Shown here piece after piece: positions 8,096 to 23,207 of a stretch of DNA of 64,000 bases. Under the pieces are notes generated by a model, which saw only the letters and a program-made list of their open reading frames with translations, did not search any database and was not told where the DNA came from. Source of the DNA: Clostridiales bacterium (GTDB lineage: Bacteria; Bacillota; Clostridia; Oscillospirales; Oscillospiraceae); NCBI GenBank assembly GCA_021202515.1, contig JAJQCW010000043.1, positions 1-64,000 of the forward strand, given 5' to 3'. The position numbers and the translations under genes are program-made. Numbering within the stretch: position 1 is the stretch's first letter; every line of letters starts with the position of its first letter.

Positions 8096-8159
8096 ATCTG
8101 TACTTCATGCGTCCTCTGATTTTGACTTGACTGTCAGACAGAAGCTGACTGCCCGGACG

Positions 8160-8197
8160 AAAAAAGAGCACTCCTCGGATCACTCCAAGAAGTGCTC
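8160..8197 (-). terminator. Rho-independent terminator (minus strand)
   Basis: GAGCACT (8166-8172) pairs with AGTGCTC (8191-8197), and a six-T run follows on the minus strand (8160-8165). No minus-strand gene now ends here. It is placed where transcription leaving lysS would have stopped before the mobile elements inserted (inference). Confidence 0.55.
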
Positions 8198-8274
8198 ACA
8201 GGTCTTGCCTGACCCTTATGCAGTTTCGCCTGAAATACACAACGCTTCGTAGCGATGCGTCATTCTTCAAAATT

Positions 8275-8296
8275 TTGCTGTCAAATTGCTGTCAAT
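8275..8296 (+). repeat. Paired 11-bp direct repeat, candidate integrase arm site
   Basis: TTGCTGTCAAA and TTGCTGTCAAT in tandem, period 11, ending 86 bp left of the att core at 8383. The right ends of elements 1 and 2 have the same layout (a repeat pair 68-81 bp left of the core). By analogy this stretch is the right end of a third element whose body is absent. Confidence 0.5.
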
Positions 8297-8382
8297 GCGG
8301 GGATGACACCAGAAATACTGCACAATATATAGTGAAATTCACATGATTCAAACACAACATGTTGCAGTTTTACTGGTCTATA

Positions 8383-8398
8383 GGCTTCATCGTCGGGA
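8383..8398. other. Attachment site core, left end of element 1
   Basis: GGCTTCATCGTCGGGA, identical over 16 bp to 16633-16648 and to the lysS 3' end at 25972-25987. Read on the minus strand with its left flank it still encodes a lysS-like tail (PTMKPIDQ then TAA), so it behaves as a former lysS 3' end. Confidence 0.8.
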
Positions 8399-8506
8399 TA
8401 TGCTCTATCCGACTTTCATCTAGTTTTATCCCGCTCCATAGTGTTCTAAAACCACAGAATCCCCGCAATTTTCGCATTTTTTCGGTTCGTCTGGTTTCGT
8501 CCTGTG

Positions 8507-8534
8507 CTTTTGAAATGGGTTAAATTGTGGGTTA
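8507..8534 (+). repeat. Element 1 left arm-type repeat pair
   Basis: Two copies of TGGGTTA (8516-8522 and 8528-8534, period 12) preceded by CTTTTGAAA. The same block occurs at the right end (16538-16564, period 11). Matching pairs at both ends of one element, differing between elements, are what tyrosine integrase arm-binding sites look like. Confidence 0.6.
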
Positions 8535-8564
8535 AAAAGCCCCGGATCTCTCCAGGGCTTTTTT
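8534..8564. terminator. Bidirectional terminator after int
   Basis: AAAGCCCC..GGGCTTTTTT hairpin (8536-8564), T-rich on both strands, 3 nt beyond the integrase stop. It ends the RHH-controlled leftward operon and would also block transcription entering from the left flank. Confidence 0.7.
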
Positions 8565-8567
8565 CGG

Positions 8568-9836
8568 CTATACGATCTTAATTTTCCCTTCCAGGTTATC
8601 AATGGCTTCCCGCTTTTTGCTTTCTGTCGCTTCTGCGTAAACGTTCATTGTGGTTCCTATGTCTGAATGACCCATGATCTCCTGAATAACCTTGATATTG
8701 GTTTCATTCTCGCAAAACCGTGTACAGAAGGTGTGACGCAGATTGTGAACGGAAAAATGCCGAATCAGCACCGGTTCCCGCCGCTCTAGTTTGGCCCGCT
8801 CCGTTTCTTCCTCGTTGTAGGCGGTATAGATCCGCACAATGGCCCGGTTGATTGCCGCCGGACTGTAGACGTTCCCAAAACGGTTTGTAAAGACAAAGCC
8901 GCTGTAACCGTCAATCTCTGCTGTACTGAATCCCTCTTGCATCTGTCGCAACCGCTCCTGCAATAATGCCTTGCGCACTTCGTCCAACATGGGAATGGTT
9001 CTACACCCGGCGCTTGTCTTTGGTGTGGTTATGTGCATTTCACAGTGACCGTTGTCTTGTACACGGTAAATCAGGTTGTGATTGATACTAATCGAGCGGC
9101 TTTCAAAGTCGCAGTCACACCAACGCAGGCCAATAAGTTCACCGACCCGGCACCCCGTACCAAGAAACACCGTAAAGAGGGGCAACCAATGCCGGTATAT
9201 CTTCGACTTTGACACATAGCCTATAAACGCCTCTTGTTCCTCAATGGTCAATGCGTGGCGTTTCGGCTTCTCCCAATCGTGGCCCTTTTTCAATTCTCCC
9301 ATAACTCCGTTTGTGGGGTTTACCCGGATTAAACCATCTCTCACCGCCATTTCAAAAACCGGGTGCAAAATCGTGTGTATAATCTCTGCACTGTTGGGCT
9401 TGAATCCCTTTTCAGTTATCAGGGAATTGTAGAAATTCTTGATGTCAGAATACCGAAAAGCTGTGATTTTCCGCTTCCCGATTGTGTCAGCGACATAATT
9501 CTTGTACATATAGACATAGTTGGTTCGCGTGGACTGCTTTAGTTCGCGCTTGCCCTCCATGTACGCCTTGAAAACGTCGTTTAGGGTCATTTTCGCCGCT
9601 GCATGGCTGTCTATACCGTCCCGAATGTCGTTTTCTATCGCCTTTTCCTTCTCTCGCAGGCTCAGGCCGTCCCGCTTGCCAGAAGGGGGTTTGTCAGTCG
9701 AAACGAGTTTCCAGCTATACACCGCCCGCCGGTTCCCGGCCTTGTCGGTGTACCGGTATCTATAGCTACCATCCGGGCGCTGATCCTCCCCGTCTCGCAG
9801 GTTGCGCCCCCTGCTGTCTTTCCGCTTTTCCGCCAT
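8568..9836 (-). CDS. int: Tyrosine site-specific integrase, element 1
   Basis: 422 aa, Tn916-Int-like architecture. The N-terminal beta-rich arm-binding domain contains YRYTDKAGNRRAVYSW. A SAM-like core-binding domain follows (LKQSTRTNYVYMYKNYV), then the catalytic domain. Visible catalytic residues: Arg in GTGCRVGELIGLRW; HNLRHTF (H-x-x-R); GH in IMGHSDIGTT; and the Tyr nucleophile in MNVYAEA. It acts at the lysS 3' end. About 60-70% similar by eye to the element 2 integrase. ATG at 9836 with GGCGGTGAG upstream. Probably the last gene of the operon driven by the promoter at 11196-11224, so under RHH control. Confidence 0.95.
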   Translation of the reverse strand: MAEKRKDSRGRNLRDGEDQRPDGSYRYRYTDKAGNRRAVYSWKLVSTDKPPSGKRDGLSLREKEKAIENDIRDGIDSHAAAKMTLNDVFKAYMEGKRELKQSTRTNYVYMYKNYVADTIGKRKITAFRYSDIKNFYNSLITEKGFKPNSAEIIHTILHPVFEMAVRDGLIRVNPTNGVMGELKKGHDWEKPKRHALTIEEQEAFIGYVSKSKIYRHWLPLFTVFLGTGCRVGELIGLRWCDCDFESRSISINHNLIYRVQDNGHCEMHITTPKTSAGCRTIPMLDEVRKALLQERLRQMQEGFSTAEIDGYSGFVFTNRFGNVYSPAAINRAIVRIYTAYNEEETERAKLERREPVLIRHFSVHNLRHTFCTRFCENETNIKVIQEIMGHSDIGTTMNVYAEATESKKREAIDNLEGKIKIV

Positions 9837-9902
9837 AGTCTCACCGCCTTTCTGCTATGACAACAGGAGCGGGCGCCAATGGCCCGCCCCTGCTTGTTGG
9901 TG

Positions 9903-10151
9903 TTATTCGCCGTCGTGGATCTTATAGGCCAGGTGAACCGGGTTGCGCGCCGCCGCGTCTCTGCCCATCTGTTCCAGACTCTTGACAAGATCCTCTGTGA
10001 CCTCTTCCGCCATAAAGAGCAGGTTTGAGGCTTTGCAGGCCATTTCCCCGTCTTTCGGCTCCACGTCAATTTTTATTGCTATGACCTCTAGCGCATAGAG
10101 AAGGGCTTGCAGGCGGCCCGCCTTCTCTATGGCCGTTTCCGCATTGTTCAT
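9903..10151 (-). CDS. Hypothetical small element protein
   Basis: 82 aa, beginning MNNAETAIEKAGRLQALLYA. ATG at 10151 with AAGGGGGA 6-7 nt upstream; a longer frame to the right overlaps the next gene and has no SD. Predicted mostly helical, with an acidic middle. Position between the coiled-coil gene block and int puts it in the RHH-controlled operon. Not recognised. Confidence 0.6.
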   Translation of the reverse strand: MNNAETAIEKAGRLQALLYALEVIAIKIDVEPKDGEMACKASNLLFMAEEVTEDLVKSLEQMGRDAAARNPVHLAYKIHDGE

Positions 10152-10224
10152 GGTGTTCCCCCTTGCTTGACGTTCGGTTGCTTGCCCCGCCGGGGGCTGC
10201 GTCTCCGGCGGGGCCTCTGTTGGC

Positions 10225-10590
10225 TTACGCTTCCTCCATAAATGCCTTCGTGTCGGCGGTTGCTTCCTCCAGCGCGGCATACGCTTCACATGCCCGGAGG
10301 TCCTTCCAGCCTGTGTCCTTGACATACATGAGCGCACTTGCCAGCGCTTCCGCCAGGTTCTCCGAAACCGTCGCGGTGAAAAGCGTATCAAAATACGCCG
10401 CCGCGCCCTCGCACTGTTCCAAGCCGCCGTTTTCCTTGACGTGTTCCCAATAGCGAACCGCCGTGAAAATCTCATTGATCTTCTCCATGCAGGCAACGAG
10501 CGGTTCACACTCACCGTCAACCACACGGGGCTGCAATTCGTCCCGCGCTTCCTCCAGGCTTGCAAGCAAATTGTTGATGTAGGTTTCCAT
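10225..10590 (-). CDS. Hypothetical acidic helical protein
   Basis: 121 aa, beginning METYINNLLASLEEARDELQ, acidic and Ala-rich, fully helical in appearance, no catalytic motif seen. ATG at 10590 with GGGAACATT upstream (moderate SD). The 157-nt gap on its right contains a long hairpin (CCTCTTGTGTG..CACACAAGGGG, about 10696-10742) without a U-run. Element-specific gene in the int operon; function unknown. Confidence 0.6.
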   Translation of the reverse strand: METYINNLLASLEEARDELQPRVVDGECEPLVACMEKINEIFTAVRYWEHVKENGGLEQCEGAAAYFDTLFTATVSENLAEALASALMYVKDTGWKDLRACEAYAALEEATADTKAFMEEA

Positions 10591-10747
10591 AATGTTCCCT
10601 TTCTGCCCTTTTGGGCGGTGTTTTGTTGTATCTTCGTCTTGACGAGCGGGGAGAACGGCGGTAAAATAGCACCATCCTCCCCTTTGTGGGTAGGTGTTGG
10701 GCCTCTTGTGTGGTACTTTGGTCGGTCACTCACACAAGGGGCTTTCT

Positions 10748-11023
10748 TTAGCCAATGACAAAGCGGATCTGCGTGGTCTGCTTCATGTACTGCGCGGCCA
10801 GGTCCGGGTTTTCCCGGCGAAAGCGGGCGCTGTCAAATCGACTGCTGTTGACGTTCTTCCAGGAAGCGGCCCAACCGTCGCCGGTGAGGGTATCTTCGCC
10901 CCGCTCCACCATAGCACCCTTGAGGGTGTCGGTCAGGGCTTCCGCCTCTGCCTGAAGCTCTGCAATTTGGTTCTTGATGTCCAACAGGGCTTGCGCGGTC
11001 AGGTTCAGTTCGTTGACGCTCAT
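10748..11023 (-). CDS. Small coiled-coil phage-type protein, RHH-controlled
   Basis: 91 aa. N-terminal coiled coil (LTAQALLDIKNQIAELQAEA), then a compact C-terminal part with GDGWAASWKNVNSSRFDSAR and PDLAAQYMKQT. The same plan occurs in the element 2 protein at 21337-21621 (coiled coil; DGTGYTIRYT; SNRFNSTAFKKAQPDVYKAY), so the two are homologues. They resemble short early phage proteins of unknown role. ATG at 11023 with GGAGG 7-8 nt upstream. First gene after the promoter at 11196-11224, with a 170-nt untranslated leader. Confidence 0.75.
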   Translation of the reverse strand: MSVNELNLTAQALLDIKNQIAELQAEAEALTDTLKGAMVERGEDTLTGDGWAASWKNVNSSRFDSARFRRENPDLAAQYMKQTTQIRFVIG

Positions 11024-11195
11024 TGTGTTACCTCCAATCTGTCTTTGTGTGGTGTGGTCAGGTTGAGCGCCGGGGGGCGTTTTAGAGCTGCCTTCCAGAG
11101 GTCTATTCCAAATCCCGTCCCGGTCTTGCCTCGCGTTCTTGCTGTTACCCGTCCGCTATGGCTCAACCATGTGTTTCTTCCTTCAACGTGAGTAT

Positions 11196-11302
11196 ATTAT
11201 AACATCGTTGCGCAACGATAGCAATAGGCGTATTATACAAAGTTACGCAACGATATTTGTGCATTTTATATAGTTGCGCAACGTTGAAAAACACGCTATA
11301 AT
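11196..11302. promoter_or_regulatory. Divergent RHH switch of element 1 (three operators)
   Basis: Three dyads share a TTGCGCAA-type core: O1 ATCGTTGCGCAACGAT (11204-11219), O2 GTTACGCAACGAT (11242-11254), O3 AGTTGCGCAACGTT (11272-11285). O1 fills the spacer of the leftward promoter (-35 TTGCTA 11219-11224, 17 nt, -10 TATAAT 11196-11201). O3 covers the -35 of the rightward promoter (TTGCGC 11274-11279, 17 nt, -10 TATAAT 11297-11302). Binding of the RHH product would shut both. Element 2 repeats this layout at 21025-21131. Confidence 0.75.
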
Positions 11303-11328
11303 TATTGTATTTTGGAGGGGGTGCGAAC

Positions 11329-11535
11329 GTGGGAAAACCAAGTACAAAAGCGCAGAATAAATACATTGCGAAAGTGTATGACCGAATTAACCTTGTAGTC
11401 CCAAAAGGGCGAAAAGATGTAATTAAGGAACACGCCGCCCAACAGGGGGAAAGCGTCAATACCTTCATCAACCGCGCTATAACAGAAACCATCGAGCGGG
11501 ACACAGAAGGGGAAGCACCGAATAAACAGCCGTGA
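11329..11535 (+). CDS. Ribbon-helix-helix (Arc-type) repressor, element 1
   Basis: 68 aa. Arc-like RHH: a beta strand in YDRINLVVPKGRKD, then helices IKEHAAQQGE and SVNTFINRAITETIE. GTG start at 11329, 9 nt after GGAGGGG. The core is closely similar to the element 2 RHH protein (YDRIQLVVPKGEKDKIK, ESVNSFIGHAI). Expected to bind the three TTGCGCAA operators directly upstream, repressing itself and the divergent operon that includes int. A strong bidirectional terminator follows at 11559-11592. Confidence 0.85.
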   Translation: MGKPSTKAQNKYIAKVYDRINLVVPKGRKDVIKEHAAQQGESVNTFINRAITETIERDTEGEAPNKQP

Positions 11536-11558
11536 AACCATCTCTAATCTGCTATGAC

Positions 11559-11592
11559 AAAAGCCCCGTGCTTCGTTTGCACGGGGCTTTCT
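11559..11592. terminator. Bidirectional terminator between RHH gene and terS
   Basis: AAGCCCCGTG and CACGGGGCTT form a 10-bp stem with a 9-nt loop, with T-rich tracts on both sides. It ends the rightward RHH transcript and the leftward packaging/replication operon. The 11593-11767 gap shows nothing else. Confidence 0.8.
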
Positions 11593-11767
11593 TGAAGGAA
11601 AAAATCTCGATGAAGAAACCGGGTCAACGGCTTCTCTGTTCGCCCCTATTATATGTCACCTGTGCCGCCTTGTCAATGCCCCTAAAATCGCGCTAAAGCG
11701 CCTACAATGGCGTTTACCGGTTTAGCCGTATAGTTTTCCTTTCCGCTGCCTTTGCCGCCTCTGTGGT

Positions 11768-12184
11768 TCATTCTGCGCGTTCTCCAGAAACGGCCCCTGC
11801 AAAACAGGTTTCTTCGGCGTCTATCTCTGGTAGGTAGATAACAACGTCATCCTCCGATATGCCGGGCTTGTCCTCTTCCTGTGGCAAGAACATTCCCGCC
11901 GCTTTTGCCAACAATTCGCTTGCCTTTAATCGAACGGCGGTTCTCTCTCGTTCGTCGTTCATGGTCTGAGACCAAAAGGCTTTAATGTCCTGAGCGGTTG
12001 CAATTCGCGCCTCTGCTGCTTCGTCCTGCAATCGCCGGATATACGCCGCAATGTCAGCTTTTGTCAACAGCCGTTGTCCGGTTTGTCGAGCGGTTTTTTT
12101 GGTATAGCCCGCCCTTCGTGCTGCTTCTGCTGCGTTCGGGTTTGCGGCGCATTCTTCCGCAAACCGTTTTTGTCGTTCGGTCAA
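11768..12184 (-). CDS. terS: Phage terminase small subunit-like protein
   Basis: 138 aa. The N-terminal DNA-binding helix-turn-helix MTERQKRFAEEC..NAAEAARRAGYTKKTARQTG is the usual Terminase_2 signature. The middle (DIKAFWSQTMNDERERTAVRLKASELLAKA) is also typical. In phages TerS recognises the pac/cos site for the large subunit. Here no large terminase or structural gene is present, which fits redirection of a helper phage's packaging to the satellite. ATG at 12184, overlapping the end of the upstream gene (12181) by 4 nt. Confidence 0.85.
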   Translation of the reverse strand: MTERQKRFAEECAANPNAAEAARRAGYTKKTARQTGQRLLTKADIAAYIRRLQDEAAEARIATAQDIKAFWSQTMNDERERTAVRLKASELLAKAAGMFLPQEEDKPGISEDDVVIYLPEIDAEETCFAGAVSGERAE

Positions 12185-12693
12185 AACTCCACCTCCCCGT
12201 CTGTCGGTAAATCTTCCGGCGGGTCTTGCCCCATGACCGCCACAAGGTTTATAAGCGCCCGCTCATGTAGGCGTGTTGTACGGCGCAGGAAAGAATCTTC
12301 ACGGTCTGCAAAATCAGCTTTCGACCCGAAAAGCATCTGTGAGATGTCCTTCCAGCGTTCGCCGTCAAGATAGCGCATTTCGATAACGGCCTTTTCATCT
12401 GGTTTTCGCAGTCGGTCAACATATTGCTCAACCATGCGCCGCCGGTCTGCCTGCGCTGTAATCATGCTCCTGATTTTATTTTCAAACTCTTCCTTTTGGG
12501 CCAGCATTGAAGCAACCCGGTCATGGTTTGGGGAGCCTCGCGGCATACCGTCAAGGTTTGGGGATCCGGTTCCTTCTATTCGCGCTTCCAGGCGCTCCAG
12601 CCGCTCTATTTGAACGTCTATCGCGTGTTCGCCGTCCAGGAAGCGCAGGAGCCATTGCTTCACGTTTTCGGTTGTGACTCCTGCGCCGTCCAT
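12181..12693 (-). CDS. Phage late-transcription-regulator-like protein (ArpU/RinA/DUF1492 type)
   Basis: About 170 aa. Helical N-terminus, then a sigma-70 region-4-like tail: EKAVIEMRYLDGERWKDISQ, a short insertion, and LRRTTRLHERALINL. In Firmicutes phages proteins of this type sit directly ahead of terS and activate the late/packaging genes. The same order is kept here. ATG at 12693 with GGAGG 8 nt upstream; an upstream in-frame ATG (12747) lacks an SD. May interact with helper-phage control; inference. Confidence 0.7.
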   Translation of the reverse strand: MDGAGVTTENVKQWLLRFLDGEHAIDVQIERLERLEARIEGTGSPNLDGMPRGSPNHDRVASMLAQKEEFENKIRSMITAQADRRRMVEQYVDRLRKPDEKAVIEMRYLDGERWKDISQMLFGSKADFADREDSFLRRTTRLHERALINLVAVMGQDPPEDLPTDGEVEF

Positions 12694-12767
12694 ATTCCCA
12701 CCCTCCGTCGTTCCTTCGTGGTTCCTCGCTGTTCTCTCGCGGTTCATTCACGTCCACGCGGCGGCTG

Positions 12768-13544
12768 TTAGCCCCGGCGTACTCCGTTGTAACTCTTTTG
12801 GACTTTCGACTTTTGGCTTGTTTTGGGTTCTGTTCCCTTCTGCATTTGCCGGATCATGTCCCGGCGGGCCTTCTGCGCCGAATCGTCCGAAATGGCGACT
12901 TTCCGCTTTTGGGCCGAATCGCCCGAAACAGCGACTTTGCGCTTTTTGGTGGAGCGGCGCTTTTCGTCTCCCCTGTGGGCTTTCTGCGCTGAATTGCCAG
13001 AAACGGCGGTTTTGTGCTTTTGGGTGGAGCGGCTTTCTTTGCTTTTTGAGGGAGCCTTTTTGAAGATCTCCACCCATGAAGCAGGCACCGCCATAGAATC
13101 CGCCCTCTTTTGGTCTCGTTTCAAGCTGCATTCCCCCTTGTAGCCTGCAAAATCGTTTATCAGGTGTGTACCGTAAGCGTCATTGTACACGCTCAGAAGA
13201 TATTGAAGTTGGTTCTCAAAATCGGCGTCATGGCCGTCACCTTCACCGCCGCCCATTCTCAGGTGCGCCAGCTCATGGAGAATCAAGAAGGCCAGATAGT
13301 CCCCGTCATGGAGAAACGCCGCCTTTTCAACGCCGATCCCCGCGCAGTCTCCCCAACCGCAATAAATCCCATCATTGGGCGGGGCAAAGTCTCCGGTGCT
13401 GGTTTCGCCGTCCCATGTGAAAAGGACGGTCAAAACCGGCTTCCCGTCTTTTACAAAGTCGCCATAAAACAAGCTCCATACTTGCCAGGGTTTCCGCCGG
13501 TATCTGGTTGAGCTGTGGCGGCGCAACTCGTTTTTGCTTTTCAT
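12768..13544 (-). CDS. Putative zinc metallopeptidase (HExxH) with repetitive basic tail
   Basis: 258 aa. Residues 80-110 contain ILHELAHLRM (H90-E91-x-x-H94) and a downstream His (H105), the layout of SprT-like/YgjP-like zincins. After about residue 165 comes a basic tail with four degenerate repeats of the KRKVAVSGDSAQK type, visible as tandem repeats in the DNA (about 12850-13030). ATG at 13544. Possibly a protein acting on DNA or on protein-DNA complexes; the tail may bind nucleic acid. Element 2 also encodes a SprT-like zincin, though of a different subtype. Confidence 0.65.
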   Translation of the reverse strand: MKSKNELRRHSSTRYRRKPWQVWSLFYGDFVKDGKPVLTVLFTWDGETSTGDFAPPNDGIYCGWGDCAGIGVEKAAFLHDGDYLAFLILHELAHLRMGGGEGDGHDADFENQLQYLLSVYNDAYGTHLINDFAGYKGECSLKRDQKRADSMAVPASWVEIFKKAPSKSKESRSTQKHKTAVSGNSAQKAHRGDEKRRSTKKRKVAVSGDSAQKRKVAISDDSAQKARRDMIRQMQKGTEPKTSQKSKVQKSYNGVRRG

Positions 13545-13574
13545 CCATTGCCTTTTGCCCCTTCCAGAATCGCG

Positions 13575-13754
13575 CTAAAGCCCCGTGAACGTGCCTCTTT
13601 GGTTTTTCTGTTTCGTTACCTCCAGCCCGTCAAAACGCGCCTGTGGACGTTTTACGCGGTTCCCGCTGTCTTCTGCTGCGTCCTTGCAATCGCAAATTTC
13701 GCCGGGGTCCAGATTGGCACCGCAAAAGGGGCATTCCCGATAAAAGCGGCTCAT
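13575..13754 (-). CDS. Small zinc-ribbon protein (59 aa)
   Basis: 59 aa, MSRFYRECPFCGANLDPGE then CDC. A CxxC pair and a later CxC are a common motif in short phage proteins of the 'CPFCGANLDPGE' kind. The start ATG at 13754 is 4 nt after the stop of the upstream gene and the stop is TAG at 13575. Codon use matches the neighbours and it exactly fills the gap between them. Role unknown; probably zinc binding. Confidence 0.65.
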   Translation of the reverse strand: MSRFYRECPFCGANLDPGEICDCKDAAEDSGNRVKRPQARFDGLEVTKQKNQRGTFTGL

Positions 13755-13757
13755 GGA

Positions 13758-14252
13758 TTACACCCGCTTTCCAAAGCTGCGCTCAAACCTTTCCTGCACC
13801 CCCTCAACGTGTCGAGAGAGAAGAAGAGCGTCAAACTTCGAGAGGCTGCTCAGCTTGAAATCTTCGTCAACCTGCCTTTTCAGCGCAGAACGAGCGGCGG
13901 TGAGCTGCGACCCGATTTTTCGCAGTTCTGAAAGAGCGGCGTTCGCCTCGTTGATCTTCTCAGCGAAAAGCGCCCTTTCCTCCTGTGTGACCGTTGGTGT
14001 CGTCCCTTCCAACCGCTCCAGTTCCAAGCCGGCCATTTTTCGGACTACCTCAGAGCGGCTTTTGTCATCAACCGCCGCTTGCAGTTCTGCGCGGCGTTCC
14101 TCGTTGTGTGCTTGCTCCTGCTGAATCCGTGCGCTGATAGCGTCCAGAATTTCAGCGGCTTCTTTTTTTGCGACATCGACAGAAAGAGCGGTCAACCGGT
14201 AGTCGCTGGCCAGTTGGTCAAGCTGCTTTGCATCTTCTAAAAATTTTGACAT
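13758..14252 (-). CDS. Coiled-coil hypothetical protein
   Basis: 164 aa, almost entirely helical and charged (ILDAISARIQQEQAHNEERRAELQAA; LFAEKINEANAALSELRKIG), so a long coiled coil. ATG at 14252 with GGAGGGA about 8 nt upstream. In the replication block of element 1. No family recognised; may be a scaffold or nuclease-inhibitor-like protein. Confidence 0.6.
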   Translation of the reverse strand: MSKFLEDAKQLDQLASDYRLTALSVDVAKKEAAEILDAISARIQQEQAHNEERRAELQAAVDDKSRSEVVRKMAGLELERLEGTTPTVTQEERALFAEKINEANAALSELRKIGSQLTAARSALKRQVDEDFKLSSLSKFDALLLSRHVEGVQERFERSFGKRV

Positions 14253-14320
14253 CGTTTTTCCCTCCTACAAATATTCCACTCTTTAGAGTTAGCGCCCACT
14301 TTCACAAGCAGGCGCTTCAC

Positions 14321-15001
14321 TCATTTCAAAAGATCTGCGATTGCCTCATAGTCTGAATCAAACCGCCTTCCGGTCCGCTCTTTCATTTCTGAAAAATCAT
14401 CAATGACTTTTTTCGTGTGTGGTGCATCTTCAACCGAATCCTCACCAACAAAAAGCGTCAAGGCGGCAAGTTCGCTGTCACTCAGAAAGACGTTGTTAAA
14501 ACGACCATGCGGCGTTTTTTTGCAACCATCGACCGACGAAAAAGCGACGTTTTCCTTTTCTGGACTTACCTTGTCTTTCCTTCCCTTATCTTTACTTATC
14601 TGCGTATCCGTCCCGTTCACGTCCCGTTTACGCTTCGTTTCCGTGGCGTTTCCGTCCCGTTTACGGCGTGTACCCTGTTCATTTTCAGGCTGTAACTGTT
14701 CCAGAAGGTTGTGATATTCGCTTTCTGTGTAGCAATCGCGCCTCAAATTGTTGTTTCTTCTCCAGTCCGTAATAAAGACAACAAGATCATCGTTGACAAC
14801 TTGAACAAAATTGCTTTCAATCAATGGATTTAGGTCTTCTTCCTCCATCCCGTATAATCGAAAGACGGGAAATGTTTCTGTAAAACCGTCGTCGTCTGCC
14901 TCCAGCCCTAAAAAGAAATACAGAAGCTGTGACGACTGAGGGAGCCTTAAAAATCTTGCGGACTGAATCACCGCCTTCGCAAACATCCGTTTTGCCGCCA
15001 T
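14321..15001 (-). CDS. Phage-type replication protein (replisome organiser-like)
   Basis: About 226 aa. The N-terminal domain reads MAAKRMFAKAVIQSARFLRL then PQSSQLLYFFLGLEADDDGF, a pattern common at the N-terminus of Firmicutes phage replication initiators (winged-helix, origin binding). A low-complexity linker rich in KRKRD follows, then a C-terminal helical part likely to contact the host helicase. ATG at 15001 with GAGGG 10 nt upstream; a longer frame to the right is overlap with the previous gene. The satellite's replication origin is likely inside or beside this gene. Confidence 0.75.
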   Translation of the reverse strand: MAAKRMFAKAVIQSARFLRLPQSSQLLYFFLGLEADDDGFTETFPVFRLYGMEEEDLNPLIESNFVQVVNDDLVVFITDWRRNNNLRRDCYTESEYHNLLEQLQPENEQGTRRKRDGNATETKRKRDVNGTDTQISKDKGRKDKVSPEKENVAFSSVDGCKKTPHGRFNNVFLSDSELAALTLFVGEDSVEDAPHTKKVIDDFSEMKERTGRRFDSDYEAIADLLK

Positions 15002-15005
15002 TGCT

Positions 15006-15437
15006 CTAACCCTCGCCGCCTGTGTCCATCTCATCAAAAGAGAGCTGATCCGGGTTTGCGCCGCCTTGCTCAACGGCCCGCGCTGTTCGTAGAATCTCAC
15101 GGGCGCGGCCTCTCATCGAGCCAACAAAGCGCCGTGTGTCGAGTTCGTTTGCAGGCAGGAAATAACCGGCAATCCCCTCGCTTGTGCTGCTCAGAATCGG
15201 TATTCCCCGGCGGCGTTCGCGCTCAATTTGCCGCCGTATGGCCCGGCCATTCTCCCCGGTCAACCTCTCCAGGTCCCGGAGTGTCAAGGCATTTTCAGGA
15301 CCGGTCAACAGTAAGCTTGCAATACCTCCGGCCAGTGTGTTAAAATCTTCTTTGGGGAAAGTGTCACCACGCATACCCCCATTTTCTGTCCGTTCCGGTG
15401 TTGCAGCACTGGAGCGGGCTTCTTTTGTTGTTTCCAT
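15006..15437 (-). CDS. HTH DNA-binding protein of element 1
   Basis: About 143 aa. The middle, PENALTLRDLERLTGENGRA then IRRQIERERRRGIPI, is a winged-helix of the kind found in phage replication and regulatory proteins. The C-terminus is basic (RRFVGSMRGRAREIL). ATG at 15437 with GGAGGTGAG 4-7 nt upstream; the frame stays open further right but that part overlaps xis and has no SD. Lies between the excisionase and the replication protein. Probable DNA-binding accessory replication factor. Confidence 0.65.
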   Translation of the reverse strand: METTKEARSSAATPERTENGGMRGDTFPKEDFNTLAGGIASLLLTGPENALTLRDLERLTGENGRAIRRQIERERRRGIPILSSTSEGIAGYFLPANELDTRRFVGSMRGRAREILRTARAVEQGGANPDQLSFDEMDTGGEG

Positions 15438-15489
15438 CGTCTCACCTCCGAATAACCGGCTGGTTAAGTGGTAGTCAAAAAAATTAGAT

Positions 15490-15699
15490 TCACTCGCTAA
15501 TCGAATCAAGATAAGTCTGAATTTTGCGCACATTCCAGAGAACACGCCGCCCAATCTGGACACGAGCGCCCGCTGCCGTCCCGGTGCTAATCGCAGTTTG
15601 CCGCCCCGCGTTAAGCAGGGACATAAGGCCCTCAGTATCAACAGTGAGCGGGTTGTATTTCTCGCCTTGTCTGGTTGCCTTTGCCGCCGTTCTTTCCAT
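15490..15699 (-). CDS. xis: Excisionase-like small HTH protein
   Basis: 69 aa. MerR/excisionase-like ending: LMSLLNAGRQTAISTGTAAG followed by ARVQIGRRVLWNVRKIQTYL. This is the usual form of small excisionases in Firmicutes integrative elements, which bend DNA at the element end and steer integrase toward excision. ATG at 15699 with GGAGGTGAGG about 8-11 nt upstream; the further ATG at 15750 has no SD. First gene of the leftward lytic-type operon, facing the cI-like gene. Confidence 0.75.
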   Translation of the reverse strand: MERTAAKATRQGEKYNPLTVDTEGLMSLLNAGRQTAISTGTAAGARVQIGRRVLWNVRKIQTYLDSISE

Positions 15700-15743
15700 T
15701 GTTTCCTCACCTCCGTCTTTTTGCGTCTTGCGTTTTGTTTTGC

Positions 15744-15782
15744 TTGACATGACAAGTATATCATGATAAGATGTCCTTGTAA
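15744..15782. promoter_or_regulatory. Overlapping face-to-face promoters (xis / cI-like switch)
   Basis: Rightward promoter for the repressor: TTGACA (15744-15749), 17 nt, TAAGAT (15767-15772). Leftward promoter for xis and the replication block: TTACAA (15777-15782), 16 nt, TATACT (15755-15760). The two overlap almost fully, so only one can be used at a time. ACAAG..CTTGT dyads within them are candidate repressor sites. Confidence 0.7.
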
Positions 15783-15823
15783 ATTACCACAAAACGCAAA
15801 TTTTCAAACGGAGGATTCAGAAA

Positions 15824-16477
15824 ATGTTTTATTCATGGCACAAAATAGGCGAACGAATCAGACAATGTAGGAAGGAAAAGGGAATGAATCAAGAACAACT
15901 CGCGGATAGAATAGGAGACGAAACCGGAAAGACCCTAAAACGGCAAACTTTAGCAAATTGGGAAAACGGAAAACCAATATGTAAACTTGAACAGTTGGCG
16001 GCCTTATGTCACATTTTTGACTGTGAAATGGGTTATTTGCTTTGTGAAGATGGATACAACCATAAGACACGCGCCAAAACAGATATAGAATACGAAACAG
16101 GGCTGTCAACACTTGCAGTTGATAATCTTATAGCAGCTTCCGATCAATTAGAAAAAGTACTTGATCCGAACGAGAGTTTATACGATGTGCAAGCATATGA
16201 ACAAGATTATGCCGATCCCAACAACAGAAATTTCATTATTGGTTCTCTTGCAAAAATCCGCTTTCTAAACCTGCTGCTTGAAGAAAGCGACGTATGGGAA
16301 GAAATCTCCGTGTGCGCTTTTGATTATAGGAAGTATATGGACGCGCACGAGAATGTACCCTATTATGATATTGATGGCGTTCCAATGTCTCTATTCGCTC
16401 AGGCGTCGGCGGAAAAGGCTAAATTAGCCCTTGAAAGGCTCTTTGGGAAGAGCAACGGACGCACTTTCGATTATTGA
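15824..16477 (+). CDS. XRE-family cI-like repressor
   Basis: 217 aa. N-terminal HTH_3: GERIRQCRKEKGMNQEQLAD then GKTLKRQTLANWENGKPICK. The C-terminal 130 residues are helical with no visible S24 peptidase Ser/Lys, so induction is more likely by an antirepressor or helper-phage protein than by RecA-driven self-cleavage. ATG at 15824 with GGAGGATT upstream. Divergent from the xis-rep operon, with which it shares overlapping promoters; the presumed lysogeny switch of element 1. A strong terminator follows (16481-16521). Confidence 0.85.
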   Translation: MFYSWHKIGERIRQCRKEKGMNQEQLADRIGDETGKTLKRQTLANWENGKPICKLEQLAALCHIFDCEMGYLLCEDGYNHKTRAKTDIEYETGLSTLAVDNLIAASDQLEKVLDPNESLYDVQAYEQDYADPNNRNFIIGSLAKIRFLNLLLEESDVWEEISVCAFDYRKYMDAHENVPYYDIDGVPMSLFAQASAEKAKLALERLFGKSNGRTFDY

Positions 16478-16480
16478 AAA

Positions 16481-16521
16481 AAGCACCGAACGGCGGTTTT
16501 AATGTCCGCTGTTCGGTGCTT
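16481..16521 (+). terminator. Terminator after the cI-like repressor
   Basis: AAGCACCGAAC pairs with GTTCGGTGCTT, with an inner GCGG/CCGC stem, followed by TCTCTTTTT. Confidence 0.85.
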
Positions 16522-16537
16522 CTCTTTTTCCGTTTTT

Positions 16538-16564
16538 CTTTTGAAATGGGTTAAAATTGGGTTA
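16538..16564 (+). repeat. Element 1 right arm-type repeat pair
   Basis: Two TGGGTTA copies (16547-16553, 16558-16564; period 11) preceded by CTTTTGAAA, matching the left-end block at 8507-8534. It lies 68 bp from the att core. Confidence 0.6.
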
Positions 16565-16632
16565 TTTTCCGTTTTTGATGGAGCGGAAAACGCCGTTTTT
16601 CGTTGATATTTCAATGTTTTTACTGGTCAATA

Positions 16633-16648
16633 GGCTTCATCGTCGGGA
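16633..16648. other. Attachment site core, junction of elements 1 and 2
   Basis: Same 16-bp core as at 8383 and 25972. Its left flank (ACTGGTCAAT before the core) is nearly that of 8372-8382; its right flank starts element 2. Read on the minus strand it encodes PTMKPIDQ followed by TAA, a second alternative lysS tail. Confidence 0.85.
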
Positions 16649-16797
16649 ATAAATTTTGAATTACACTAAAACAGGCCTTTGACTTTGCATTTTGTACGTT
16701 TCTGCTCCAGCAACCACAACATATTGTGGTATTCCGCTCTATCATCGTGTAAAACGGTGTCTAAGGCCTAAAATACTATTGGTTTTCAGCTTATGAC

Positions 16798-16820
16798 TTT
16801 TTGGTACAATTTTGGTACGG
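16798..16820 (+). repeat. Element 2 left arm-type repeat pair
   Basis: TTGGTAC twice (16801-16807, 16812-16818; period 11) after a T-run. The right end has TTGGTAA twice (25868-25874, 25880-25886; period 12). Candidate integrase arm-binding sites specific to element 2. Confidence 0.6.
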
Positions 16821-16867
16821 TGCTTTTTCGCTTTCCAAAACAGGACTTTGAAAACAGGCCATTGAAA

Positions 16868-18142
16868 TTAGGCGAGTTTAATCTTACCTTGCAGACTGGA
16901 AAAAGCCTCTTGCTTAATCTGCGTTGTTAAATCCGTGTATACGTCAAGCGTTGTGTCGATACTGCTATGCCCCATAATTTCCTGAATGATCTTCAAGTTG
17001 ACCTTGTCGGATTCATTCTCACATAACCGGGAACAAAACGTGTGCCGTAAATTGTGCGCTGTGAAGTGTGGCAACAGCACCGGCTCTCGATTCTCTGCTT
17101 GCGCCCGTTCTGTTTCCTCTGCGTTATACGCCTTACGGATTCTTTCTATTCCTCGGTTAATACTAGCGGGTGAATACACACCGCCGTCACGGTTCACAAA
17201 CACAAATCCAGAGTAGCCATCTATGACAGCCCTGTTAAATCCTGTGTGTAACTGACAGTTGTACTCCCTTAATAGTGCGTCCCTCACCTCGTCGAACATT
17301 GGAATCACACGGATACCCGCCGCCGTTTTCGTGGTGGTAATGTGATACTCACATTTCCCGTTATCTTGCGGCCTGTAAATCAAGTTGTGGTTAATGGAGA
17401 TAAGATTGTTTTCAAAGTCGCAATCCTCCCATCGTAAACCAATCACCTCACCCACTCTGCAACCTGTTCCAAGAAACACGGTCAAGAGCGGCAACCAATG
17501 CCTATATGTCGTAGAACCCCGTACATAATCGACAAATGCCTTTTGCTCATCCGCTGAAAGAGCTTTCCTTGTGGGCTTGTTCCAGTCACGCCGCTTCTTA
17601 ATCTCTGCCATAACACCATCTGTTGGATTCTTGCGGATAATGTCGTCTCTAACCGCTGTTGCAAATATCGGGTGTAAAATAGTATTGACCACCTCCATAC
17701 TGTTGGGCTTAAATCCTTGTTCATCAATCAGGGAGTTATAAAGCCGTTTAATATCGCTGTATTTGATATTTGCTATCTTTTTGGAACCTAAAACACCGCT
17801 GATATATTTACGGTACATATATTTATAATTTGTCCGTGTGGACTGCTTCAATGGCCGTTCCTCTATGTATTCTTCAAAGAAATCGTTTAGCGTTGTCTTA
17901 CCGGCTGAAACGGTGTCAATCCCGCTCATCAAGTCCCGCTCTATCTCTTGTTCCAGTTCACGCAATGACAGCGTTTTAGGCTTTCCCCGTGGTGTCGGGT
18001 CATTAGCGTTTAATCTCCAAGAGTAGACGCATTGTGTCTTACCGTGTATATCCGTGTATCTATACTCATACCTCCCATTAGTCCGCTGGTACTCCCCTTT
18101 ATGGAGAACTCGATTCTTCTTGTCTTTCCGGTTGTGTGCCAT
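16868..18142 (-). CDS. int: Tyrosine site-specific integrase, element 2
   Basis: 424 aa, same architecture as the element 1 integrase: arm-binding N-terminus (YEYRYTDIHGKTQCVYSWRL), core-binding domain (LKQSTRTNYKYMYRKYI), catalytic domain. Catalytic residues visible: GTGCRVGEVIGLRW, HNLRHTF, IMGHSSIDTT, and the Tyr in DVYTDL. Target is the lysS 3' end. ATG at 18142 with AAAGGGG upstream. No excisionase gene is recognisable in this element, so excision may rely on an unrecognised small protein or on the neighbour's Xis (inference). Confidence 0.95.
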   Translation of the reverse strand: MAHNRKDKKNRVLHKGEYQRTNGRYEYRYTDIHGKTQCVYSWRLNANDPTPRGKPKTLSLRELEQEIERDLMSGIDTVSAGKTTLNDFFEEYIEERPLKQSTRTNYKYMYRKYISGVLGSKKIANIKYSDIKRLYNSLIDEQGFKPNSMEVVNTILHPIFATAVRDDIIRKNPTDGVMAEIKKRRDWNKPTRKALSADEQKAFVDYVRGSTTYRHWLPLLTVFLGTGCRVGEVIGLRWEDCDFENNLISINHNLIYRPQDNGKCEYHITTTKTAAGIRVIPMFDEVRDALLREYNCQLHTGFNRAVIDGYSGFVFVNRDGGVYSPASINRGIERIRKAYNAEETERAQAENREPVLLPHFTAHNLRHTFCSRLCENESDKVNLKIIQEIMGHSSIDTTLDVYTDLTTQIKQEAFSSLQGKIKLA

Positions 18143-19159
18143 TCAAACCCCTTTCATTCCAGCACACGATATAGCTATTATTATCATACTATATTATGTT
18201 CCTCATTTCAATTTTAATTTGCCACCCAGTTCCATAACCACGGGCTTTTGTGTACTTCAAGTGTGGCGTTTTAACTTTTTATCTGCCATCCAGCCCCATA
18301 ACCACGGCGTTTTTGAATACTTTTTCATAGAATAATCCCTTATTATTGTTTATTTGTTCTGGAAATATATTTATTTTAGTATATTTTAAGAACTTTTTAA
18401 CAGTATTTATAAATATAGTCATAATGAACAAAAAACGTGATTTATTTTTAATTTATTTATGAATAATAAATAAACACAAGTTTTTTAATTATCTTCCCTC
18501 AATCACCTGTCACCTACCCCGGTTGTTATCGCCTTTATTCCAACCGCTCCAATAGGATAACCGTCCCTTTCTCTTTTGGATATGATAACCCTGTCAAATC
18601 CCGTAGCTTGTTCTCTGTAATACAGGATTCTTATTTTCAGAACTTTTTCACCGGATTGCTTTGTAGGATAACCTCAGATTGTTTTTGTCTCTTTTATCTA
18701 TTAGCAACCGTTCGTAACTGTCCGCTGTACGGGGAGTTACGAATTTGCCTAGCAGGTTCTACCCTGCTAAACCAAAAATCCTTGCAACTTTTTTCAGAAC
18801 ATTTCTCATAACTTTTAGGATGGTTTACCGACCTTACGGTTTACTCACTGGAAAAATTATGAAAAGCCCGTCAAGAGAAAATAGTACGAACAGGAATAAT
18901 TCTAGCCTGAAACAAGAGGCTCTGTTCTGGACTGCCGGAGAAGAAAGGGAACGCGGCCCCCGAATCGTTCGTAACTGCCCGCTGTACGGGGAGTTACGTC
19001 AATTTGGCCTTTGCAAAAAATGACGTGAAGCAAAAAGTTCTTGCAAAATCCCATAACCACCGGCTCTCATGGCACCTGTTTGTAGCAAAAGGTTCTGAAA
19101 ACACGGTGACTATGGGATAATCAGCCTATTATATAGTCTGCAAAAAATGACGTGGTGTA
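18143..19159. other. Non-coding, AT-rich, repeat-bearing region (candidate origin/attP arm region)
   Basis: About 1 kb without a gene. It holds: a 23-bp direct repeat containing CCATAACCACGG (18221-18243, 18285-18307; 20 of 23 match) and a third partial copy at 19051-19063; a very AT-rich stretch (18340-18500); and a hairpin repeat TTCGTAACT..AGTTACG around a CCGCTGTACGG centre at 18711-18743 and again at 18968-18998. A separate TAGCAGG/CCTGCTA hairpin lies at 18750-18769. Placed directly downstream of rep, this fits a plasmid-type origin; the first repeats could also be integrase arm sites. Confidence 0.5.
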
Positions 19160-20056
19160 TCAACCATCAAAGAACCGTTTTGACACTTCTATAAAGCTGT
19201 TGTTTGTTCCGACATAGAAAATGTTCGGGTTAATGCAAATTTTGGCGTCACTACTATACAGACTGTTATAAATATATGCGCAAAATCTTTCCATTCTGTA
19301 TTCACCCGCATACTCTACCCAAACAGGAAAACGCAAGGTGTCATAAATTTTCAACAGCCTATGGATGTTTGTCAAATTGTAACCAATTCTCTCGCAAAAC
19401 TCCGAAATTGATAACAATTCTATCTTATTTATATCTTTCTCGAATGGATTATTACAGATAAGATTGTACTCTCTGTTTATAAATGGGAGTAGCTTAAACA
19501 AATACCCTAGCTGTTTGTGGTACAGCCCGTTAGCCGCTCCGTATAACGCCCTTACACCCTTATCATAGAACTGTTGATACTCTGTAAACGCTTTCTTTTG
19601 CAACTTTCCGCGCTTGAAAAACGCTTCATTTAGATATAAAAAGCCGTTTTCATCCTCATATACATATTTTGGACTGACCTCTTTCCAGAAGTTAGCCGTG
19701 TGCCTTGCGGATAACCCCAACACGGCGGGGAGATTTTTCCGCTCCATGTGTGTCTTTCTGGTTCTCATAACCGCGTTGTCATATCGCGCATAGGTACTCA
19801 GGTATATGAGCCTTGTAACCATAGCGGGGGATACTCCTTCAAATCTGGAATCGCTTCTCACGAAATAGTATTGCATCCCCTCTTTCCTACGGTGTTCAAA
19901 CTCACGTTCCAGCCGCTTTGCCTGCTCGTCTATACGGCGTTGTATCTCGTTCTGCTCTGTAACCCTTGCTCCGTAGTCCATGCCGCCGATTGCTTCACCT
20001 GTGGCCCGGTCAATAAACAGTATGTCCTTCTCTAAGTCTGTGCCTATATGGATCAC
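19160..20056 (-). CDS. rep: Plasmid/element replication initiator-like protein
   Basis: 298 aa. A coiled N-terminus (IQRRIDEQAKRLEREFEHR) is followed by a winged-helix-like domain (VTRLIYLSTYARYDNAVMRT, then LPAVLGLSARHTANFWKEV). A second globular part follows with LLSISEFCERIGYNLTNIHR. I read it as a Rep-type initiator of low-GC Firmicutes elements, by pattern only. Start is GTG at 20056 with AAGAAAGG close upstream. Transcribed from a strong promoter (20498-20526) through a 440-nt leader, typical of copy-number control. Confidence 0.6.
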   Translation of the reverse strand: MIHIGTDLEKDILFIDRATGEAIGGMDYGARVTEQNEIQRRIDEQAKRLEREFEHRRKEGMQYYFVRSDSRFEGVSPAMVTRLIYLSTYARYDNAVMRTRKTHMERKNLPAVLGLSARHTANFWKEVSPKYVYEDENGFLYLNEAFFKRGKLQKKAFTEYQQFYDKGVRALYGAANGLYHKQLGYLFKLLPFINREYNLICNNPFEKDINKIELLSISEFCERIGYNLTNIHRLLKIYDTLRFPVWVEYAGEYRMERFCAYIYNSLYSSDAKICINPNIFYVGTNNSFIEVSKRFFDG

Positions 20057-20526
20057 TAGCCTTTCTTAATGATGAAATTTATCTTTTGTTGATTCAATTA
20101 AGGGGGAAGAACTCCGCTCCATTCCCTTGACCCGTTTTTCTCATAGCCCATTCATTAGGCACCGCCTCCCTCCAAAAGATTGTATAGCCTCAACCACGCC
20201 CTAAAAGCGTGAATCGCTCACAAGGCCCCTAGAACGCTCTGTAATGCGTTCTGCTTCTCGGATGTGATTCTATATTACCATGCGCCTAAAACGCTCCTAC
20301 GGGGCTTTTACGGCCTTGTAGCGCGTTTCTGCCTGTTGTGCCGCTCCAAGACAACAAAAAAGCGCACAACAGAAAGGCATAGCTGTAGACTATACCGATT
20401 CATGTTGCACGCCTGCTGACAGCGAGGCTTTGATGTACCCGGCTCAAACCGGGTATATAGAGATTCAATGCAAGCTGTTCAATTTTTAGCCACGATAATT
20501 ATACCACACTACCGGATACCCGTCAA
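20057..20526 (-). promoter_or_regulatory. rep promoter and long structured leader
   Basis: Minus-strand promoter: -35 TTGACG (20521-20526), 17-nt spacer, -10 TATAAT (20498-20503). The transcript would run about 435 nt before the rep start. The leader contains several stems, notably CTGTTGTGC..GCGCACAACAG (about 20333-20374) and ACCCGG..CCGGGT (about 20438-20456). Leaders of this sort usually mediate attenuation or antisense control of Rep; I saw no clear opposing promoter. Confidence 0.55.
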
Positions 20527-20623
20527 GTGCAGTCACAGAAAGTTCACAATCAAGTCTTTCGCAGTCAGAATTAAAATGACCACTTCAACCTTCCCCTATA
20601 ATCGCAAGGGGGGTGTCAAGCAA

Positions 20624-20995
20624 TTAGCCCTCCCCGTCTGTCCTCATTTTTTCCAAGACGGCCGCCTTTACATAGTCCTCTACCGTCTGACCGTCCTCTA
20701 GCAAGGCGGTTAGTTTTTCCATGTCAGAATCTGAAAATGCGATTGACAGTGAGATGGAGCGACTTATAACATTATCCCCGGCGTTCCCGTCTGGAATACC
20801 AAAACCACCCGCCATTGCTAACTCTATGGCGTGGCCGATGAAAGAATTAACGCTCTCGTTCGCAGCTTGCGCCGCCGCCTTTATCTTGTCTTTCTCACCT
20901 TTTGGAACTACTAATTGAATCCGGTCATATCTCTTTTGCAAATTCTCATCGTTCCATTTCTTGTTTGCTCTTTTTCTTGCTTCACTCATTGCCAT
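20624..20995 (-). CDS. Ribbon-helix-helix (Arc-type) repressor, element 2
   Basis: 123 aa. The RHH core YDRIQLVVPKGEKDKIK..ESVNSFIGHAIELA is close to the element 1 protein. It has an extra N-terminal basic stretch (SEARKRANKKWNDENLQKR) and a C-terminal extension (SISLSIAFSDSDMEKL). ATG at 20995 with GGGGG 7 nt upstream. Three palindromic operators lie directly ahead; it should repress itself and the rightward operon from 21103. The mirror-image copy of this module is in element 1. Confidence 0.85.
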   Translation of the reverse strand: MAMSEARKRANKKWNDENLQKRYDRIQLVVPKGEKDKIKAAAQAANESVNSFIGHAIELAMAGGFGIPDGNAGDNVISRSISLSIAFSDSDMEKLTALLEDGQTVEDYVKAAVLEKMRTDGEG

Positions 20996-21024
20996 AGCAA
21001 TACCCCCTTAAAAATATTCATCCT

Positions 21025-21131: not shown

Positions 21132-21336
21132 TTAATCATCCCAAACAGAGAGGCGCAAGTCAAGGCGGACGAAGTAGCGCAAGCGAACCAAGAACGCAAG
21201 ACAAGAGTGAGACAGGATAAGAGAGATTGAGACGCGGCAAAGCCACTAGATGTTTAACGCCACTCACCACTTGCAAGCCACACTTCAAACACCACACCAC
21301 GAACCACTACACCATGAATCAAAAGGAGATAAGAAC

Positions 21337-23166: not shown

Positions 23167-23175
23167 CAGAAAAGA

Positions 23176-23203: not shown

Positions 23204-23207
23204 GGAA

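Follow-up and report, generated by a model that had tools for sequence, protein, structure and literature searches.

A probable re-addressable three-dyad switch with an Arc-type RHH repressor in two elements stacked at lysS

Introduction

Two elements inserted in tandem at one lysS site carry the same promoter layout, three 16-bp dyads between two divergent promoters, and we consider it likely that this is a re-addressable switch in which one Arc-type RHH protein represses both promoters. The elements lie in the window, by which we mean the whole stretch of 64,000 nucleotides that was analysed. An earlier note on this DNA had proposed a modular device with diverging specificity, and that proposal is strongly supported by the presence of the layout in 48 of 115 promoter clusters, by 28 different operator cores and by the covariation of these cores with the contact residues of the repressor. 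Our case is computational and comprises the layout, its spacing, the placement of the promoters, the covariation, the stacking of the elements and the structure of a leader RNA.

RHH repressors, three-operator switches and the divergence of immunity specificity are already known kinds of things. For the combination of a conserved RHH chassis, a natural bipartite code and a leader RNA, no precedent was recognised in a limited literature search or in Rfam, and the same limited literature search on the switch, the RNA and the satellites gave nothing that we recognised as matching this system.

Genomic setting

The bounds of the elements follow from three copies of a 31-nt direct repeat (family D3), the last of which lies at the 3' end of lysS (Table 1). 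Element 1 is 8368-16617 (8.25 kb) and element 2 is 16618-25956 (9.34 kb), and the two are tandem insertions at one site. The empty site is seen in two genomes of the same genus (L200 and L201), in which the left flank, 8112-8398, is matched at 86% identity and continues directly into lysS.

Table 1. Features of the two elements and the adjoining lysS gene, in coordinates of the window
Feature	Position	Strand	Remarks
Left att repeat, element 1	8368-8398		D3 copy
Integrase, element 1 (Tn916-type)	8568-9836	-	Pfam Integrase_DNA 1.9e-28, Phage_integrase 3.2e-24; phrog_1
Coiled-coil gene, element 1	10748-11023	-	91 aa; phrog_434 9.1e-12, phrog_6244 6.8e-10
Structured leader RNA, element 1	11061-11168	-	covariance model R1, 111 bits (training-set member)
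Opposing promoter, element 1	11196-11224	-	-35 TTGCTA 11219-11224, 17-nt spacer, -10 TATAAT 11196-11201; 10/12 matches
Far operator, element 1	11204-11219		ATCGTTGCGCAACGAT; 8/8 pairs self-complementary
Middle operator, element 1	11239-11254		AAAGTTACGCAACGAT; 5/8 pairs
Near operator, element 1	11270-11285		ATAGTTGCGCAACGTT; 6/8 pairs; includes RHH -35
RHH promoter, element 1	11274-11302	+	TTGCGC 11274-11279, 17-nt spacer, TATAAT 11297-11302
RHH repressor 1 (RHH1)	11329-11535	+	68 aa from GTG; contact triplet R-N-V; phrog_13890 1.3e-24 (ORF 11305-11535)
Cro/C1-type regulator, element 1	15824-16477		Pfam, profile searches
Middle att repeat, junction of elements 1 and 2	16618-16648		D3 copy (97%)
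Integrase, element 2	16868-18142	-	Pfam; phrog_1 2.2e-74
RHH repressor 2	20624-20995	-	123 aa; contact triplet R-Q-V; phrog_13890 1.4e-17
RHH promoter, element 2	21025-21053	-	TTGCGC 21048-21053, 17-nt spacer, TATAAT 21025-21030
Near operator, element 2	21042-21057		ACACTTGCGCAAGTGT; 8/8 pairs; includes RHH -35
Middle operator, element 2	21073-21088		core TTACACAA; degenerate, under the 5/8 cut
Opposing promoter, element 2	21103-21131	+	-35 TTGGCT 21103-21108, 17-nt spacer, -10 TACAAT 21126-21131; 9/12 matches
Far operator, element 2	21111-21126		ACACTTGCACAAGTGT; 7/8 pairs; one end base enters hexamer
Structured leader RNA, element 2	21155-21274	+	R1 41.4 bits, E 5.4e-7 (outside training set)
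Coiled-coil gene, element 2	21337-21621	+	94 aa; phrog_6244 9.6e-12
Right att repeat, 3' end of lysS	25957-25987		D3 copy (81%)
lysS	25959-27452	-	class II tRNA synthetase D/K/N, Pfam 1.8e-88; lysS call by eye

Element 1 carries an integrase, a terminase small subunit (terS), a DnaD-like loader, a phrog_36 regulator and a Cro/C1-type regulator, and element 2 an integrase, a SprT-like protein and a DNA invertase-type recombinase. Among the searched ORFs of both elements, which are a part of the total, none matched capsid or tail proteins, and among those of element 2 none matched terS; on these ORFs both elements look like satellites or remnant prophages. As to the features of PICI-type islands, size, int, att and the empty site are present, and terS with the DnaD-like loader was found in element 1 only, again among the part of the ORFs that was searched.

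The SaPI/PICI Stl switch belongs to satellites with int, terS and a divergent repressor, and it is induced by a helper phage. Our elements share the satellite size, int, a divergent repressor and, in element 1, terS, and differ in that the repressor is an RHH protein and not Stl. We regard it as rather unlikely that the elements are phage-inducible islands whose RHH protein acts as a Stl-like repressor relieved by a helper-phage protein: the sizes of 8.25 and 9.34 kb, int, the terS and DnaD-like genes of element 1 and the lack of capsid and tail matches among the searched ORFs would all suit this reading, which has against it the separate Cro/C1-type regulator of element 1, the lack of a terS match among the searched ORFs of element 2 and the occurrence of the same RHH type in complete phage genomes and in an inovirus. 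Given the Cro/C1-type regulator, the RHH protein may not be the master repressor of element 1.

Three smaller features of the elements deserve mention. A further small CopG/RHH-like repressor gene (phrog_18157, 1.9e-6) lies near the right end of element 2, at 25476-25661 on the forward strand; a 36-nt direct repeat (18706-18741 and 18963-18998, 94%) separates the integrase of element 2 from the next gene; and a perfect TTGACA/17/TATAAT promoter match (12/12) on the reverse strand at 11676-11648, between terS and RHH1, is directed toward RHH1.

The RHH proteins

Both repressors belong to the RHH superfamily by their matches to phrog_13890, with an Arc-like match to phrog_582 at 1.9e-4; their Pfam matches are under the gathering scores. 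A profile search of the PDB returned 2k1o (3.3e-5, named 'Putative'), an Arc fusion (1u9p, 8.2e-5) and Arc (1b28, 1.3e-3). The predicted structure has an extended stretch followed by helices at 28-38 and 43-61, together with an extra N-terminal helix, and in Foldseek its top match is Arc 1bdv (probability 0.94, E 0.51); ranks 1-7, which we take to be RHH proteins, all have E above 0.1.

The likeness to the Arc repressor of phage P22 extends to the residues that covary with the operators, as described below, which align with Arc 9, 11 and 13: N21 and V23 of RHH1 correspond to Arc 11 and 13, and a one-step extension of the alignment places R19 opposite Arc 9. These three positions are given as the base contacts of Arc in the excerpted text of PMC12645479. 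The differences from Arc are the three dyads in a divergent promoter region, the extra N-terminal helix and the use of one chassis with many addresses.

We considered whether the RHH protein might be the antitoxin of a type II toxin-antitoxin pair and rejected this, as no partner toxin was recognised. The coiled-coil proteins encoded across the divergent region have no match to toxin families in Pfam or PHROGs; the 3' side of RHH1 holds a terminator-like hairpin (11570-11587, from a scan in which 0.9 would be expected by chance) and then genes on the opposite strand; and PADLOC gave a single weak match, PDC-M38B at 5e-4, to the coiled-coil protein of element 2.

Promoters and operators in the window

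Each element has three 16-bp dyads, with 31 bp from near to middle in both and 35 and 38 bp from middle to far. The best-three-dyad scores are 33 and 34 for the two elements, against shuffle means of 27.9 and 28.1, and 0 of 20 shuffles equalled either. Much of this arrangement had been described in the earlier note, and it was borne out in both elements at the positions of Table 1: three operators, a TTGCGC/17-nt/TATAAT RHH promoter overlapping one of them, a middle operator 31 bp from the one on the RHH side, and a far operator filling the 17-nt spacer of the opposing promoter, of which one end base reaches the hexamer. In element 1 it is the last base of the far operator that falls outside the spacer.

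A consensus promoter scan listed both opposing promoters; the RHH promoters are absent from it because TTGCGC matches TTGACA at only 3 of 6 positions. For the opposing promoter of element 2 a separate promoter-pairing script favoured a different pair, TTTACA and TTTAAT. The two elements have an identical core despite the change of the contact residue from N to Q, and the flanks are ATCG in one and ACAC in the other.

The lambda OR region, and lambdoid immunity regions in general, likewise have three operators between divergent promoters, with repressor specificities that differ between relatives. Three operators of which the outer two each lie over one promoter are found here in the window pair and in most of the 78 regions described below. 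The present repressor is an RHH and not a helix-turn-helix protein, no Cro-like second repressor was recognised, and one protein would be expected to act on both promoters. The conjugation switch of pLS20 is another mobile-element switch of Gram-positive bacteria with divergent promoters and differs, so far as the title of PMC4207663 tells, in its overlapping promoters and in DNA looping.

We propose that the Arc-type RHH repressor would bind the three dyads between the two divergent promoters. Bound to the near dyad, it would cover the -35 of its own promoter; bound to the far one, it would fill the -35/-10 spacer of the opposing promoter. The middle dyad probably aids cooperative binding, a role that we propose because the distance from the near to the far dyad stays close to 66 bp. 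A single small protein would then repress its own gene and the opposing operon (leader RNA, coiled-coil gene and, in element 1, perhaps int), with its own level held low and the operon silent, and on a fall in repressor the operon would be transcribed through the leader RNA. The chassis would be kept as the address, i.e. the dyad sequence, and the residues that read it change together, and co-resident elements, here two at one lysS site, could keep separate switches. We infer binding, the repression of both promoters, cooperativity and insulation or immunity as the cause of divergence from the sequences; the inducing event, and the part that the leader RNA may take in the mechanism, are likewise suppositions.

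Recurrence of the layout

RHH relatives occur at five places in the window's own genome, in 84 of 300 family genomes (138 places, summed by hand) and in 37 of 391 class genomes, a count that includes the own genome and one family member. The loci come from about 98 of the 138 family places (the weaker being mostly omitted), and 45 more represent the 52 places outside the family; viral contigs, genome contigs and phages were added. The first set (L001-L118) consists of 123 anchored regions minus 5 duplicates, i.e. 118, and the full set of 179 domain hits minus 6 without an anchor, 1 short and 5 duplicates, i.e. 167, including secondary or partial domain hits (for instance three in L109) that can count only as misses or noise. 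A held-out set has 51 regions in 36 clusters, none joined to the first set.

An unsupervised search, blind to spacing and sequence, took the best three sites of any palindromic six-base half-site with a spacer of 0-4. In the first set, 38 of 81 promoter clusters beat all 60 shuffles and 34 of 81 had spacings within 31-45 and 23-34 bp, where the shuffles predict 0.92; this window was chosen after inspection of the first-set results. For the loci outside the family it was fixed beforehand, and there 7 of 36 clusters fell within it against 0.47 expected, and 6 of 36 beat all shuffles.

A search with the spacing constrained found the dyad triple in 78 of the 167 regions upstream of RHH genes (48 of 115 clusters), which beat all 40 shuffles. 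Of 167 control windows, 5 did so; each control was taken from the loci under study as the closest match in GC content among at most six drawn. A score of at least 33 was reached by 43 RHH regions and 0 controls. The remaining 89 of the 167 regions have no spaced triple at this threshold, and outside the family the triple is present in only 11 of 51 regions, with 40 misses. By eye, some of the 78 have two good sites only (L069, L082, L097, L100, L110, L141 and L145).

Where the triple is present its relation to the promoters is regular. With about 40 positions allowed in each case, the RHH -10 lies 18-20 nt from the centre of the near dyad in 48 of 78 regions, and the opposing -10 lies 10-11 nt from the centre of the far dyad in 54 of 78. 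A reading of the dyads as an RNA hairpin or terminator was rejected on the basis of these fixed distances to promoter elements in most of the 78 regions. In the 63 strongest loci the near-to-far distance has a mean of 65.8 bp (sd 2.5) and the near-middle and middle-far gaps are negatively correlated (-0.39), both with gaps constrained by the search window. Mean dyad matches, of 12, are 11.40 for the far, 10.95 for the middle and 10.73 for the near dyad in these loci, so that the far dyad is the best matched and the middle is no worse than the near. The degenerate middle operator of the earlier note is therefore a property of both elements of the window and does not extend to the 63 strongest loci.

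Such a well-matched dyad inside a promoter spacer might alternatively point to a dual regulator, following the model of MerR-like logic, in which the RHH protein represses its own promoter and activates or remodels the opposing one via the far and middle dyads. We hold this to be improbable, since a dimer lodged in the spacer would be expected to obstruct polymerase, and the opposing promoter, with its 17-nt spacer and at least 4 matches per hexamer in most of the 78, seems self-sufficient.

Of 157 RHH loci, 41 have a divergent coiled-coil gene no more than 900 nt away. At two loci (L007 and L072) a 39-aa hydrophobic peptide replaces it, with its start 41-42 nt from the centre of the far dyad.

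Operator sequence and the residues that read it

Among the 78 operators there are 28 distinct symmetrised six-bp cores, the symmetric consensus losing asymmetric centres such as GTACCC; the operator tree gives 23 groups when cut at a distance of 0.4 and 11 when cut at 0.5. Operator sequence covaries with the RHH strand residues aligned with Arc 9, 11 and 13 rather than with the helices. In partial Mantel tests on 75 of the 78 (after near-identical proteins were dropped, and with profile columns 27-62 as the helix body), the correlation of operator with contacts given the helix body is 0.36, with 0 of 2000 permutations as high, and that of operator with helix body given contacts is 0.04, with 351 of 2000 as high. 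For proteins at most 70% identical, the operator distance to the nearest neighbour is 0.471 by contact triplet, 0.661 by helix body and 0.676 for all, and the triplet neighbour was better than the helix-body neighbour in 63 cases and worse in 13, of 78.

The correlation can be divided along the operator. The inner bases correlate with strand indices 1, 3 and 5 (r 0.33, 0.37 and 0.30, with 0 of 500 permutations for each) and weakly with two pre-strand residues (0.19 and 0.07); the outer bases correlate with these two pre-strand residues (r 0.52 and 0.29, 0 of 500 each) and have r of 0.00, 0.02 and 0.09 with the three strand indices. This suggests a bipartite code in which the strand residues would track the core and the pre-strand residues the flank. 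Shared descent is not removed from these correlations, because non-contact strand positions have a partial r of 0.25 with the operator (0 of 2000) and the top five columns for the core or inner bases include two from outside the strand (index -8 and 24).

Outside the family, 8 of 11 loci share a triplet with the first set, and their core distance is 0.246 against 0.657 for all; 8 of these 8 are closer than average and 0 of 5000 random draws were as low, in a comparison that was not blind, the operators having been inspected beforehand. One triplet can nonetheless go with differing dyads, as for RNT (L027, L045 and L106) and RET (L075 versus L024). If binding is confirmed, the 78 promoter regions, each with a readable operator beside its repressor, would be a natural data set, and a natural code, for the reading of DNA by RHH proteins, from which testable predictions (strand residues to core) and candidate orthogonal repressors can be drawn.

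The coiled-coil gene and its leader RNA

The homologous coiled-coil gene that the earlier note had seen in both elements is indeed shared, at 32% identity and with the same leading PHROG matches. The protein is similar to the C-terminal portion of the phrog_434 exonuclease family; the model for element 2 (pLDDT 86.6) has a long helix followed by strands, and a fold search of the PDB with the coiled-coil model gave nothing significant. Judged by gene order alone, the operon may continue into int in element 1. As a regular member of the operon int was rejected: none of the 11 coiled-coil loci that leave 1400 nt or more of space has a codirectional homologue of the window integrases. One of these 11 (L049) has an integrase of a different type adjoining, and at another locus (L035:924-1179) the coiled-coil gene is split across two frames.

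In both elements the coiled-coil operon has as its leader a structured RNA, conserved and showing compensatory changes. Several loci share a similar fold in the region that separates the opposing promoter from the coiled-coil gene. Because an initial MAFFT alignment of 15 leaders did not retain the outer helices, 8 were realigned with a structure written by hand. In this structure of 20 pairs, 95.8% of cells are paired against 78.9 in shuffles, 10 pairs are changed on both sides, and there are 26 compensatory cells against 9.2 in shuffles (0 of 500 as many); the number of pair types is unremarkable (82 of 500 shuffles). The covariance model R1, built from these 8 leaders and without that of element 2, recovers the element 2 leader at 41.4 bits. 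Its 29 matches, of which 25 are distinct, show double changes in 16 of 18 pairs and 91 such cells against 24.2 in shuffles, these being matches fitted to the model and including two weak ones that are probably chance.

The leader RNA was found in 26 of 300 family genomes (34 hits), and the sampled loci outside the family gave only three R1 matches, with E of 0.3 to 0.9. At three loci (L070, L121 and L150) the coiled-coil leaders are too short for the RNA. Rfam at its gathering score had 0 matches in the window; permissive searches, of 451 bases at the element 1 leader and of 17.9 kb in five loci, yielded two tRNAs in other places and miRNA models that scored well under their cut-offs. We consider the leader a candidate new RNA family.

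Of 31 loci with the RNA (L167, L168 and L170-L198), 29 have a coiled-coil gene; an RHH hit is present in 25, and is weak in two of these. In four of the six without RHH (L168, L190, L192 and L198) a Cro/C1-type HTH gene (Pfam HTH_26) is nearby, and one might ask on this account whether a host factor or a Cro/C1-type protein reads the dyads and the RHH gene is a bystander. We give this hardly any credence, as the dyad sequence tracks the contact residues of the RHH protein.

Phage antitermination leader RNAs such as put are also structured RNAs at the operon start of a phage-like element, and tandem pairs are a further point of likeness; ours differs in having no Rfam match. We speculate, tentatively and with rather less than even confidence, that there are two layers of control, a DNA address read through the bipartite RHH code and a leader RNA gate (a helix junction, sometimes in tandem) that would serve as an antiterminator or as a binding site for the coiled-coil protein. 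Elements would re-address the DNA layer to coexist, and the RNA layer would be kept, also under Cro/C1-type repressors. An instance of a tandem leader pair before a coiled-coil gene is found in the own genome (L168, C20:6929-7148), where the divergent neighbour is a Cro/C1-type HTH protein (HTH_26) and not RHH.

Co-residence and insulation

In the unsupervised search each of the five RHH relatives of the own genome has a dyad set of its own; three (L001, L003 and L004) pass the spaced test and two (L002 and L114) have other spacing. Across genomes, 0 of 17 within-genome pairs have an operator distance below 0.35, compared with 7.8% of 2986 between-genome pairs; 1.3 would be expected, and 17 pairs, with genome labels assigned by hand, are too few to decide the matter. 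Immunity or insulation between stacked elements, as a hypothesis, would fit these data; if binding is confirmed, the differing addresses might explain how stacked elements escape silencing by one another.

Alternatively, the operators may have diverged by neutral co-drift of repressor and sites, unrelated to the insulation of co-resident elements. This is a possibility that we take seriously without holding it probable: avoidance within genomes (0 of 17 pairs, 1.3 expected) is not demonstrated, which leaves room for drift, and what speaks against it, suggestively only, is that many symmetrised cores occur on one layout, also inside one cluster of homologous promoters (c87), and that the two stacked elements and the five relatives of the own genome all differ.

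The compatibility of elements in gut Clostridia becomes testable in this way, for instance with Castelnaud and Chenonceau, which the excerpted text of PMC10197239 places among the induced prophages of Flavonifractor plautii. Both carry RHH genes with different dyads and both barely pass the spaced test (30 vs 29); in the unsupervised search the best three sites of Chenonceau are spaced at 41 and 19.

We also considered whether an RHH paralogue of the own genome (L002) controls a CRISPR system. It adjoins an array, yet the repeat orientation and a Cas4 ORF (Pfam 3.1e-15) mark this as the trailer end; control of CRISPR was rejected and the dyads beside the array are probably there by chance. The RHH relative at L164:12748-18038 (own genome, C75:25000-44999), with TTGCGCAA dyads, is at the trailer end of a CRISPR array. 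The C75 array has 74 repeat-end matches, the divergent promoter of the RHH gene would read antisense into it, and the Cas4 ORF lies beyond.

Two further loci are of interest for the arrangement of their sites. In an inovirus (L117, PQ006124.1), three CACTTGTGACAWAGTG sites with spacings of 24 and 33 lie upstream of an RHH relative, in the interval between that gene and an RstB-like gene. Another locus (L082, G271:C43) has three consecutive RHH genes of this family, two of them with their own spaced dyads, of which the third site is poor.
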